Assembly (NCBI GenBank): GCA_017347445.1
Contig: AP021856.1
Location: forward strand, 248,001-312,000
Source: Candidatus Brocadia pituitae
GTDB lineage: Bacteria > Planctomycetota > Brocadiia > Brocadiales > Brocadiaceae
Direction of reading: 5' to 3'
DNA: 64,000 bases
The notes below the pieces were generated by a model, which did not search any database, was not told where the DNA came from, and was given only the letters and a program-made list of their open reading frames with translations. Positions 46 to 15,027 of the stretch are shown here, piece after piece; the first letter of the stretch is position 1; each line of letters starts with the position of its first letter. Both the position numbers and the translations under genes were made by a program.

Positions 46-837
46 CTAGGTACGGCCAGACACGCCATTTTCGAGCAAGCTTGCCGGTAAATGTTTCTGC
101 AGGAACTTCCCCAGTTTTTGATATAGCTCATTTTCACGGGCAATTTCAAACACAGAAGCTCCGCACGCCGCAGTATCGTAAACCTCCTGATCAAAGGGGA
201 ATATCGCAGATACTTCAATCCCCAGGCTGTCCAGCTTTTGCTGAAGATTTTCATGAATACCTTTCTGGGGTACCCGGTTTAGGATACAATACTTTTGCCG
301 GATCGTAACCGAAAGAGATTCAGCTAATGCGATGATCCTTTGTAATGTCAATGCACCAACAATCGTTGGCTCACTTACAATCAACAGGAGATCGACATTA
401 TTCGTCGTTCGTCGCGAGAGATGCTCCATCCCTGCCTCATTGTCGGTAACAATAAACGGGTACGTTGTGCCTACTTTGTCCAGGTATTTACGCAGGAGAT
501 TATTGACATAGCAATAACATTTCGGCCCTTCCGGCCTCCCCATCGTTAAAAGATCAAATTTCTCCTTTTCAATGATAGACTCCTCGATGGCATACTCAAT
601 ATATCTGTCCTTAGACATCCCGGAAAAATCTACTTTTTTCTCCACGATATCTTCACGGATGTCAGCAACGGTGCTTTGCACGTGCAGACCAAGCAATGAA
701 CCGAGAGACGCATTCGGATCGGCATCTACCGCCGATACCGGCTTACCAAGCTCTTCGGTAATATATCGGATAATAAGGGCAGAAAGGGTCGACTTCCCCG
801 TTCCTCCCTTTCCTGCCACTGCAATATTAAAAGCCAT
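46..837 (-). CDS. cooC: CooC/AcsF-type nickel-insertion ATPase (first copy)
   Basis: Cytosolic MinD/ParA-like P-loop ATPase of 263 residues that, by family knowledge, drives nickel insertion into CO dehydrogenase or acetyl-CoA synthase. The sequence shows a deviant Walker A (GKGGTGKST, residues 9-17) and a CxC metal-binding pair at Cys107 and Cys109, the hallmark of CooC dimers. The start is supported by a GGGGAT ribosome site. It is the last gene of the cluster in this window, downstream of the RACo gene and separated from it by a decayed insertion. A second CooC lies at 10.3-11.1 kb; which one serves CODH and which one serves ACS (AcsF role) cannot be decided here. Confidence 0.9.
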   Translation of the reverse strand: MAFNIAVAGKGGTGKSTLSALIIRYITEELGKPVSAVDADPNASLGSLLGLHVQSTVADIREDIVEKKVDFSGMSKDRYIEYAIEESIIEKEKFDLLTMGRPEGPKCYCYVNNLLRKYLDKVGTTYPFIVTDNEAGMEHLSRRTTNNVDLLLIVSEPTIVGALTLQRIIALAESLSVTIRQKYCILNRVPQKGIHENLQQKLDSLGIEVSAIFPFDQEVYDTAACGASVFEIARENELYQKLGKFLQKHLPASLLENGVSGRT

Positions 838-868: not shown

Positions 869-1291
869 TCACCGCAGAGGACGCAAAGTACGCAGAGAAT
901 CGGAAAAATTATTAACAACTCTCTGAATATATCCTTTTAATATCTCAACGTTAAAGTTGATAAACAATCCGACTCTACGGTTTGATAACATCAAACAAGA
1001 GATCAATTGTGCTTTATAAATCGGCAAACTTTTCAACCGATTTTATTTTTACAGCAAACTCATCTTCTACAATTAAATCCAAGCGATAACCCTGATACAA
1101 ATGCTACACCTCGACACACTGCAGGAAAAGGTTTTTCGCTGTTCTACTTTCAAACCTGCCTGAGTAAGACCGTATGCCATACATGCCTCATAAGCAGATT
1201 TAAGTAGTCTTGATCCCAATAAACGATGAACATTGATAACTACACCGATACTTGCTTTTGTTACATTATTACGTCTTGCACCTTCATTCAT
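869..1291 (-). pseudogene. GxxExxY-family protein pseudogene (two frameshifts)
   Basis: Read in three frames, this stretch reconstructs a GxxExxY-family protein of about 130 residues. The N-terminal part (1291 to about 1120) gives the VHRLLGSRLLKSAYEAC segment typical of the family. After a frameshift comes YQGYRLDLIVEDEFAVKIKS and VEKFADL, then a stop; a second shift gives a segment with SNRRVGLFINFNVE and the ending VVNNF. The reading frame is broken twice, so no intact product is expected unless the assembly is wrong here. It sits between the RACo gene and cooC, and is bounded by inverted repeats. The family's function is not established. Confidence 0.75.
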
Positions 1292-1320
1292 CTCCCCCGT
1301 CTCTGCGACCTCTGCGGTGA
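870..1320. mobile_element. Inverted-repeat-bounded unit carrying the GxxExxY pseudogene
   Basis: The left end (870-899) begins CACCGCAGAGGACGCA and the right end (1301-1320), read on the other strand, begins CACCGCAGAGGTCGCA. The two ends therefore form inverted terminal repeats, with 11 identical bases before the first mismatch, exactly enclosing the GxxExxY pseudogene. The unit fills the gap between the RACo stop codon and the cooC start. No transposase is encoded inside, so mobility is inferred only from structure. Confidence 0.5.
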
Positions 1321-1329
1321 GTATTTTTA

Positions 1330-3255
1330 TTAAACCATCAGTTCCTCTGCAACGGATGGAAATTTTTCAATATCGGTATGCGGTAAAAAGTTTGCCGACA
1401 CATACTCTTCCATATATTTATTATTGCTCATAAGATCAAAATATGTCATCTTTGACGCAATAACCCTGGCAACTTCATAGGCATCTTTGGCGAGGAGGAC
1501 CATTTTTGCGCCGAGCACCGAGGTATTTCCTACAAACTGTACCTTTGAAGCAGACATGTCAGGGAGCATCCCAATTGTAATGGCGCTCCGTATGTCGAGA
1601 TAATTGCCAAACCCGCCCGCAAGGTAGAGCTGCTCAATATTATTTGCTTCCATCCCCATGGATTCAAGCAGGGTAGAGATTGCCGAATAGATCGCCGCTT
1701 TTGACCGCATGAGATTCTGAATGTCCGCCTGGGTAATAACGATATCCCGTTTTGTAGCGGTTTCGCTCCTGTCAACCAGAATAAATTCATAGCCGTTGTC
1801 CGTTTTCCTCAAACGGTCTGCGTTTATCCCTTTCTGGAAATTGCCGGTCCTGTCGATGACACCACTTCTGACAAGATTCGCCAGACAGTCTAAAAGTCCG
1901 GAGCCGCAAATACCGTTTGCTGGAGCATCTCCAATGGTTTTATACGTGACATGGTAATTTTTTGTAATCGACACCTTTTCAATTGCACCCTTAGCCGCAC
2001 GGGTACCACAGGAGATACCGCTGCCTTCAAAAGAAGGGCCTGCCGATGCGGAGCAGCACACCATCCAGTCTTTATTGCCCAGCACAATCTCGCCATTCGT
2101 GCCAATATCAACAAGCAGCGACAACATCTCTGCCTTGTCCAGTCTGATTGCCAAAGCACCGGAAGAGATATCCCCTCCCACATAAGCGCCAACGCACGGG
2201 AGGGTATAGAGCAGGCCGTTGTTATTAATTTTCACCCCCACCTCATGTGCCCTCAAAGGAGGCACAAAGCTTGCGGATGGAAGATACGGCTCTTTTCTGA
2301 TATTCGTAGGGTCCAAACCGATGAGAAAATGGGTCATTACCGTATTTCCCGCACAAACCACCGCATGAATATCGTGGATACTAAGATGGTTTCTCTTAAC
2401 AAGGGTAGAAATGAGATGGTTAATATCCTCAACCAGCACCTCCTGCATGAGCTCCATGGCGTTATTTTCAGCGGCATACATAATCCTCTGAATATAATCG
2501 TCCCCATATTTAATCTGAGAATTGTAGGTTGCTTCAACATCGACCGTCTCTCCGCGGGAAAGATTCATAAGGTGCGCAACCACTGTGGTTGTTCCAACAT
2601 CCACGGCAACACCATAATTTCCTTCGCTGGCATTGCCCCCCTGTATTTCCATAATTTCTACCGACGGACCCCTGTATCCCAGCGTCACCGTCACCTTCCA
2701 GTTACTGCCCCTTAGAATACCCGGAAGGCGTTTGAGGACATCGAAATTTGTAGTCAGCTTTTCCAGCGAAACGTGGGTTTTTACCATGATCTCCCTGCAC
2801 AGTCGCTCATAATCAGCCATACTGTCATCCAGAGTAGGTTGCGGCAGTTCAAGATATACTTTATTTACCAAAGGGTCTTGCTGAAAATGTTCCACATTAG
2901 CGGTAGCTGCTGCCAGGGAACCTGAGAATTGAGGAAATTCGCTGACAAGGATTTGGCTTTTATCAAGCTTCGATTCTTCAGGAATGATTACTTCCAGGTT
3001 GCCCATTACCTTTGTACTGCATGCAAGAACATACCCTTTTTGCGCCTCTGATACCGAGATATGAGTCGTGGGCATGCTTTCAATCATACCGGAACCCAGA
3101 ATGACTTTACACTTGCCGCACGTGCCGTCGCCCCCGCACAGGGCGTTTATAAATAAATCCCCTTTATATGCAGCATCGAGGATAGTTTTTCCCTTTTCAA
3201 TCTCTACGGTAACGTCAACAGGAAAGAACTGTACTTTAAATCGTGAGTTTTCCAT
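1330..3255 (-). CDS. acsV: RACo: ATP-dependent reductive activator of the corrinoid iron-sulfur protein
   Basis: 641-residue protein matching the RACo family, which uses ATP to re-reduce the inactivated Co(II) corrinoid of AcsCD to Co(I). The N-terminal [2Fe-2S] ferredoxin-like domain carries Cys40, Cys46, Cys49 and Cys79. The rest is the ASKHA-fold ATPase (DUF4445 type), with phosphate-binding elements such as AVDVGTTTVVAH and the glycine-rich LLVDIGTNGEIVL. It lies directly downstream of acsC, which encodes its substrate, in the same direction; this fits its role well. The symbol acsV follows acetogen usage; many annotations leave this gene unnamed. Confidence 0.88.
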   Translation of the reverse strand: MENSRFKVQFFPVDVTVEIEKGKTILDAAYKGDLFINALCGGDGTCGKCKVILGSGMIESMPTTHISVSEAQKGYVLACSTKVMGNLEVIIPEESKLDKSQILVSEFPQFSGSLAAATANVEHFQQDPLVNKVYLELPQPTLDDSMADYERLCREIMVKTHVSLEKLTTNFDVLKRLPGILRGSNWKVTVTLGYRGPSVEIMEIQGGNASEGNYGVAVDVGTTTVVAHLMNLSRGETVDVEATYNSQIKYGDDYIQRIMYAAENNAMELMQEVLVEDINHLISTLVKRNHLSIHDIHAVVCAGNTVMTHFLIGLDPTNIRKEPYLPSASFVPPLRAHEVGVKINNNGLLYTLPCVGAYVGGDISSGALAIRLDKAEMLSLLVDIGTNGEIVLGNKDWMVCCSASAGPSFEGSGISCGTRAAKGAIEKVSITKNYHVTYKTIGDAPANGICGSGLLDCLANLVRSGVIDRTGNFQKGINADRLRKTDNGYEFILVDRSETATKRDIVITQADIQNLMRSKAAIYSAISTLLESMGMEANNIEQLYLAGGFGNYLDIRSAITIGMLPDMSASKVQFVGNTSVLGAKMVLLAKDAYEVARVIASKMTYFDLMSNNKYMEEYVSANFLPHTDIEKFPSVAEELMV

Positions 3256-4959: not shown

Positions 4960-5598
4960 CTATGTCTTTAAATCATCACTCGTCTGTATAATTTTACTGA
5001 CCAATCCGTATTTGAAAGCTTCTTCAGCGGACATCCAGAAATTTCTCTTGGTATCCGTCTCTACCTTTCCCAGGGGTTGTCCCGTCTCAACAGAAATCAA
5101 ACGGTTAATCTTTTCCCGGCACTTAAGGATTTCGCTGGCTTCTATCTGAATATCGGCCGCAGTACCATGGATGCCGGTGGAAGGCTGATGAATGAGCACG
5201 CGGGCATTGGGCAGGCTGAACCGGTTTTCCTTTTTTGCACCAAGCAGGATAATTACCGCAGCGCTGGCGGCAACCCCTGCGCAGACGGCTTTTACCTTTG
5301 GCTTAATAAACCGCATCATATCATAGATTGCAAAACCCGCATCAGCATCACCACCCGGGGAATTAATAAACATCTTAATATCTTCATTGCTCTCCCCTTC
5401 AAGGAGGATAAGCTGAGTCATGACCTGTTGTGCCATCTTTTTACTCACCTCGTCTGAAACCATAACCGTACGCGTCTTTAATAATCGTGCAATCAGATCG
5501 CCTCCGGGTCGTTTTTCCTTCTCTTCACCAGCACCTTCATCCTGTACACGTAAAACCTGACTTTTTCCTAAGAAAGGGATTGGCATATCAACGATCAT
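4960..5598 (-). CDS. clpP: ClpP-family serine protease subunit with altered triad
   Basis: 212-residue ClpP homologue, which normally forms the tetradecameric proteolytic chamber that works with ClpX or ClpA. The nucleophile serine (GVAAS) and the histidine (VLIHQP) are present. At the position aligning with the catalytic aspartate of E. coli ClpP (ERDRFLSA) this protein reads KRNFWMSA, so Asp is replaced by Asn, as known in Listeria ClpP1. The start has a CTGGAG ribosome site. No clpX or tig neighbour is present; instead the gene lies inside the CODH/ACS cluster between acsB and acsC, which is unusual. It is probably a paralogue to a housekeeping ClpP elsewhere. Confidence 0.9.
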   Translation of the reverse strand: MIVDMPIPFLGKSQVLRVQDEGAGEEKEKRPGGDLIARLLKTRTVMVSDEVSKKMAQQVMTQLILLEGESNEDIKMFINSPGGDADAGFAIYDMMRFIKPKVKAVCAGVAASAAVIILLGAKKENRFSLPNARVLIHQPSTGIHGTAADIQIEASEILKCREKINRLISVETGQPLGKVETDTKRNFWMSAEEAFKYGLVSKIIQTSDDLKT

Positions 5599-14881: not shown

Positions 14882-15027
14882 CTCACTACAGAGAACGCTG
14901 AGGTCTCAAGGAAATCAGGAGAGACTTGGAAGTTAAGATGCAGTCAGATTGAGTTTCCCAACTTCATAACTTCCCAGTCTCTTATCTTCTGGTTTTTCTC
15001 TGCGTTCTTTGCGCTCGCTGCAGTGAA
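14882..15027. mobile_element. MITE-like palindromic element between metK and ahcY
   Basis: A 146-base imperfect palindrome without coding capacity. The inner arms match at 17 of 19 bases: AGAGACTTGGAAGTTAAGA (14920-14938) against TCATAACTTCCCAGTCTCT (14964-14982). The ends read CACTACAGAGAACGC and, on the other strand, CACTGCAGCGAGCGCAAAG, related to the ends of the GxxExxY unit at 870-1320. It stops 13 bases short of the metK stop codon. These are the features of a miniature inverted-repeat element. Confidence 0.6.

Follow-up and report, generated by a model that had tools for sequence, protein, structure and literature searches.

The stretch of DNA analysed here, referred to as the window, is 64,000 nucleotides long and covers positions 248001-312000 of the source genome (G000; 4.08 Mb, one contig). 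Positions 869-1320 of the window form a 452-bp unit bounded by inverted repeats, inside which lies a minus-strand GxxExxY gene that is no longer open. The features of the locus, and one further unit of the window, are as follows.

46-837, minus strand: CbiA/MinD-type ATPase (cooC-like), the downstream operon gene.
869-897, plus strand: 3'-side arm of the gene, TCACCGCAGAGGACGCAAAGTACGCAGAG, made of three 9-10-bp units; it also encodes the final codons of the minus-strand GxxExxY frame together with its TGA stop.
869-1291, minus strand: broken GxxExxY gene (TIGR04256 / PDDEXK_3), with homology over 914-1264.
869-1320, minus strand: the whole 452-bp unit, with a predicted RNA fold in which the arms pair as the closing stem (z -8.6).
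1292-1300: degenerate third unit of the 5'-side arm, with the start codon (1289-1291) directly after it.
1301-1320, minus strand: arm on the gene's 5' side, TCACCGCAGAGGTCGCAGAG as read on the minus strand.
1330-3255, minus strand: RACo/AcsV-like corrinoid activation protein, the upstream operon gene, ending with its stop about 10 nt ahead of the unit.
14883-15026, no strand assigned: gene-less unit of 144 bp between two genes, with degenerate CRCNRAG inverted arms TCACTACAGAGAACGCTGAG / CTCTGCGTTCTTTGCGCTCGCTGCAGTGA.

The acetyl-CoA decarbonylase/synthase gamma and alpha/beta genes adjoin the RACo-cooC pair. The original prediction had placed the unit between genes of a Wood-Ljungdahl cluster, and the RACo-like and cooC-like neighbours agree with this. 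A small correction is that the CODH/ACS cluster also contains a ClpP protease gene (4960-5598), which lies between those for the gamma and alpha/beta subunits.

The two arms (869-888 and 1301-1320; TCACCGCAGAGGACGCAAAG and CTCTGCGACCTCTGCGGTGA) are 20 nt long and 90% complementary, and no inverted pair in the first 3 kb of the window is longer. A GxxExxY gene does lie between inverted repeats as predicted, and its C-terminal codons are indeed made of the repeat, with the TGA stop being the end of GCGGTGA in the arm. The N-terminal fragment of the reading frame matches TIGR04256 below the cut-off of 35 (1.3e-07; 31.9 bits). When the copy is read through its stops, the match passes that cut-off with 52.9 bits over profile positions 2-116 and contains one TAG and three TAA stops in frame. 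The source genome holds two intact GxxExxY copies, the window relic, and two fragments. The intact copy at 2,005,494 belongs to a unit that is also exactly 452 bp long, and the window unit is identical to it in 328 of 454 aligned columns, arms included. Relative to this intact unit the window copy has one extra base near 1137, another near 1094, and two bases missing near 1028, so the frame is broken as had been claimed, by three indels rather than two frameshifts. Lysine replaces both the GxxExxY glutamate and the ExK glutamate. Because of the two +1 and one -2 indels and the loss of catalytic residues, the window copy is, as judged from its sequence, dead and a relic only. No known RNA family was found at the window unit, and there was no rRNA match there or in the 11 GxxExxY loci searched. 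The arm pattern has 18 matches in the source genome and none in a reversed control, and is therefore more than a chance occurrence.

The original prediction had called for an insert-free form of the RACo-cooC junction and had counted the same insert in all relatives against itself. The junction is empty in nine relatives, where it measures 94-102 bp in the extracted fragments. A genome of the same genus (G006) carries a shortened derivative with flanks as in the window, three genomes of other genera (G013, G015, and G019) carry shorter or decayed derivatives, and five more have other inserts at this position. Nine relatives lack the insert and its derivatives extend to further species and genera; the insert is thus not universal, nor is it a recent arrival, and the window copy is an old relic. 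A target-site duplication could not be defined, the empty sites joining uncleanly and being too diverged for the ends to be placed to the base.

Nearly all GxxExxY genes examined, from more than 10 phyla, are flanked by inverted arms of 9-10-bp units. The recommended check of GxxExxY loci for flanking inverted repeats covered 80 GTDB loci from many phyla, picked by likeness to one GxxExxY clade: at least 71 have CRCNRAG tandems no more than 200 bp from the gene. The tandems are mostly forward upstream and reverse downstream of the gene, and fall to the background level beyond 300 bp. Other clades, seen in Brocadiales, have other arms, for example ACAGGATAAACAGGATAAACAAGAT, CCACGAAATACGCGAAATTACGCGAAA, and CCACGAATGAACACGAATG. 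Across 191 loci, the inverted match between the two flanks of the same locus has a median of 17, compared with 9 between loci and 8 after shuffling, and exceeds the shuffled 95th percentile in 87% of loci versus 18% for the between-locus comparison. The unit types of the left and right arms agree in 138 of 201 loci (35 expected), and the arms have a periodicity of 9-10 bp (z 20, 14).

The arm type is tied to the protein. Mapped on the protein tree, it requires 38 changes versus 82 for shuffled labels (minimum 72), while the host genome label requires 69 changes versus 72 expected. The gene tree consequently carries no host signal, and the arm type tracks the protein phylogeny and not the host. 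Within single genomes, arm similarity also increases with protein similarity (rho 0.32). At one orthologous site (L350, L352, and L026) the arms differ by the loss of a whole 9-10-nt unit, as is likewise the case for the heptamers of the Coxiella intervening sequence (IVS). Nine orthologous copies inspected by eye for compensatory changes in the arms show whole-unit losses and no clear pair-by-pair compensation.

The GxxExxY protein is about 120 residues long. An intact copy (L001) matches PDDEXK_3 (PF13366) with 143 bits against a cut-off of 22. The AlphaFold model of the protein has a pLDDT of 94.8. The nearest solved fold is that of the Cas4 protein SSO0001 (4ic1; Z 10.1, rmsd 3.7 over 98 residues). 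The Cas4 profile match, at 16.9 bits, is below the Pfam cut-off of 22.7, and membership in Cas4 was rejected in favor of a resemblance in fold only. No PDB relatives were found by sequence, and a defence-family search returned weak Cas4 matches and nothing else. The PD-(D/E)XK superfamily is defined by E, D, ExK, and QxxxY active-site residues; intact GxxExxY copies have them, with the E, D, E, and K retained in 202-205 of 205. The dN/dS ratio is 0.05-0.15 for orthologues at one conserved site and mostly 0.1-0.3 in the mobile group of the type found in genome G003. These residues and ratios indicate a predicted nuclease family that is conserved and under purifying selection.

GxxExxY units are placed in operons in a characteristic way. 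Among the 162 loci where both neighbours could be read, both are co-directional with the GxxExxY gene in 135 and both are opposed in 6. The arm begins a median of 6.5 nt from the upstream stop codon, with 86 of 124 distances between -5 and 25 nt. Plasmid units likewise lie between genes (radA and the next gene; fabD and fabG). The stop/start junction of an RND-efflux operon holds GCAGAG-type units in the source genome and five others. In other relatives the same junction holds ACAGAT-type units, several of them with a GxxExxY gene of another clade (G006 and G008), and in G005 the two operon genes overlap with no unit between them. For an intact unit (z -3.1) as well as for the window relic, the RNA is predicted to fold so that the arms pair into a closing stem. 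At three loci (L196, L200, and L220), a GxxExxY unit lies directly upstream of a Cas2-like reading frame. This arrangement possibly accounts for the GxxExxY neighbour of a CRISPR reverse transcriptase that a published tool reported (PMC8934634).

Movement is evident from near-identical units. Two units of G003 (L030 and L178) are 99.8% identical and occupy different sites on one 1.6-Mb contig. Two other genera have units (L168 in g8 and L170 in g10) with 97-98% identity to this pair, again at different sites; these come from draft genomes, in which mis-binning is possible, a problem from which the G003 pair is free. Homology among copies of this type ends near the arms. A further same-genome pair (L020 and L164, in G041) is 94.7% identical, with a hairpin-like sequence downstream of L164, and two units from different genera (L199 and L203) are 90% identical, with no such hairpin seen. 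Both marks of a mobile element were found: empty sites, and near-identical copies in non-homologous positions. What moves is the entire unit, gene and cognate arm type together. Phages and plasmids were rejected as the means of spread, GxxExxY being present in 0 of 50,697 phage records and 8 of 72,556 plasmid records; among five plasmid loci inspected, a clear inverted pair is present at three, repeats in both orientations at one, and no such repeats at the fifth.

Copies without a complete gene are also dispersed. A loose arm pattern has 46 matches in the source genome versus 3 in the control, most of them far from GxxExxY genes. Gene-less arm pairs about 90-180 bp apart occur there, for example at 898520-898612, a site that is empty in G003, G004, and G005. 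G003 has internally deleted copies at further sites; three of them share one junction, a deletion at a 4-bp microhomology that could recur. Since arms-only and internally deleted copies have spread, something acts in trans on them. In a census of 138 Planctomycetota genomes, GxxExxY is present in 46 of 50 repeat-rich genomes versus 25 of 88 others (Spearman 0.61). The four repeat-rich genomes in which GxxExxY was not detected, all drafts, count against the nuclease as that trans factor. Two repeat-rich genomes without a detected gene, G065 and G125, have 135 and 42 matches, for which missing contigs, loss of the gene, or another trans-acting factor are possible reasons. Taken together, the loci show a mobile nuclease gene with cognate arms, inserted in the sense orientation at operon junctions and accompanied by gene-less derivatives.

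The best explanation, and in our judgement a probable one, is that the window copy is a dead member of a widespread group of guest elements whose nuclease acts on its cognate arms. Each unit consists of one reading frame for a minimal Cas4-like PD-(D/E)XK nuclease between inverted arms of about three imperfect 9-10-bp units, and settles in the sense direction between operon genes, usually just past a stop codon. The unit would have no promoter of its own and would be read from the host operon, and the RNA stem may limit damage to the operon or isolate the guest reading frame from the message, comparable to the RNase III excision of rRNA IVSs. The nuclease would recognise its cognate arms by their units, or else the target junction, and cut there, after which host repair or replication would complete the transfer. 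Gene-less copies would thereby be movable in trans; arms-only or internally deleted copies do accumulate. Recognition of the arm units by the nuclease, as the first step of movement, is in our view somewhat more likely than not. The original prediction had described GxxExxY as cargo of a repeat-bounded unit mobilised in trans. A repeat-bounded travelling unit is strongly supported, and far more generally than the single locus could reveal, by the arms at the GTDB loci, the near-identical units at unrelated sites, and the empty junctions, and action in trans by the spread of gene-less and deleted copies. The notion of mere cargo fits less well: because the nuclease is conserved, is under selection, and has a phylogeny that tracks the arm type, GxxExxY looks like part of the engine.

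The observations from G003 bear on a different reading, in which GxxExxY is a passenger and the arms, or a larger hairpin-ended carrier, depend for their movement on an unrelated enzyme acting in trans (IS200/IS605-like, RAYT, or other). The mobile unit common to this subfamily continues outside the arms as far as two further ends, a hairpin CATAACCCGAACGAGTCGG and an AT-rich sequence ...ATAAGATACTA, and several internally deleted copies retain both of these. Movement in G003 may therefore depend on other machinery, and this extension is the main reason why the arms are not claimed to be the true ends in every case. A separate hairpin repeat CCCGAACGAGTCGG(AA) and its partner end ATAAGATACTA enclose several Brocadiales GxxExxY units (L287-L297, L164, L170, and L182). 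The existence of gene-less copies would also suit a passenger. On the other hand, the hairpin end was observed at some Brocadiales loci and nowhere else, whereas the link between arms and gene extends across phyla. The conserved, selected active site and the agreement of arm type with nuclease phylogeny also count against a passenger. Neither the hairpin nor the arms were found near the 12 Y1-transposase loci of G000 and G003, and a Y1 transposase (REP-RAYT / IS200-IS605) was rejected as the carrier. The passenger reading is judged unlikely.

A homing-like process would have the nuclease cut a particular operon junction, with the unit then copied by recombination from a related genome, so that spread is allelic. 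The RND-efflux junction, with GCAGAG- or ACAGAT-type units depending on the relative and an empty site in G005, fits such a process, and the RACo-cooC junction too holds several insert types. Near-identical units at unrelated sites of one genome, however, argue that movement is not only allelic, and we regard homing as improbable. It is very hard to sustain that the units do not move at all and are ordinary operon genes with flanking regulatory or processing hairpins. The predicted closing stem, the co-directional neighbours, and the purifying selection on orthologues at one site would fit such genes, but this reading is contradicted by the near-identical units at unrelated sites and by the lack of host signal in the gene tree, and the gene-less copies and empty sites also argue against it.

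The guest-element reading points to a widespread kind of mobile element, of which the relatives lie between operon genes in many bacterial phyla. In the literature searched, with subscription journals outside the scope, no description of GxxExxY units or of the repeat sequences was found, and the name is mentioned without a function or repeats. GxxExxY is annotated in many bacterial genomes without a known function, and the link to the arms offers a testable role. It would explain common intergenic repeats such as CACAGAG, CGCAAAG, CACGGAT, and similar sequences, and would place a PD-(D/E)XK nuclease among the few enzymes that underlie dispersed repeats in bacteria. The result also bears on the old question of the origin of the S23p intervening sequence, since the S23-type genes described below have the same architecture around an unrelated reading frame family.

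TIGR02436 (S23/four-helix-bundle) genes outside rRNA in Brocadiales (L317-L345) were meant as a negative control. They came out positive for inverted arms, with a median inverted match of 16.5 versus 8 shuffled, and negative for CRCNRAG arms, which occur at 1 of 23 loci. The arms consist of 7-bp tandem units, for example AGTGGTTAGTGGCGAGTGG (lag-7 z 17), and 15 of 16 genes are co-directional with their neighbours. The inverted-arm test therefore does not single out GxxExxY; the 9-10-bp CRCNRAG arms do. In inverted tandem-unit arms and co-directionality the TIGR02436 genes are like GxxExxY units, and they differ in their 7-bp units and unrelated protein. These loci look like S23p IVS elements living between protein genes. 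We tentatively suggest, at somewhat less than even odds, that GxxExxY units are undescribed autonomous mobile elements in which a minimal Cas4-like nuclease reads its own periodic arms, and that with the S23-type elements they form one wider class of IVS-like operon guests, of which the sole constant is a small reading frame between cognate, fast-changing, periodic inverted arms.

Among known systems, the S23p IVS is the closest analogue. The IVS in the 23S rRNA of Coxiella burnetii is a 428-nt selfish element in which an S23p reading frame lies within terminal inverted repeats forming a 28-bp stem, with tandem heptamers near the end (PMC4990558). It is excised by RNase III, its reading frame is prone to decay, and transposition has been proposed as its origin (PMC4990558). 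One small reading frame in terminal inverted repeats, a closing stem, short tandem units, and a decaying reading frame are common to both. The S23p IVS differs in lying within 23S rRNA, in its RNase III excision, and in its four-helix-bundle reading frame and heptamers, whereas GxxExxY units lie between protein genes and have a nuclease reading frame and 9-10-bp units. The window unit has the closing stem, but its identity as an S23p IVS was rejected on account of its PDDEXK_3 reading frame and its site between protein genes.

By analogy, the GxxExxY unit may be viewed as a guest of the IVS or REP/RAYT kind that carries another enzyme. In REP/RAYT systems, a gene is flanked by cognate short inverted repeats, gene-less copies are numerous and dispersed, and the repeat type is linked to the protein. 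RAYT is an HUH/Y1 enzyme, unlike the PD-(D/E)XK protein of GxxExxY units. The internally deleted and arms-only derivatives dispersed in the genome resemble the MITEs of insertion sequences, from which GxxExxY units differ in that the unit holds no DDE, HUH, or tyrosine transposase and has no definable target-site duplication. Cas4 SSO0001 provides the nearest solved fold, for a GxxExxY protein that is small and scores below the cut-off of the Cas4 profile.
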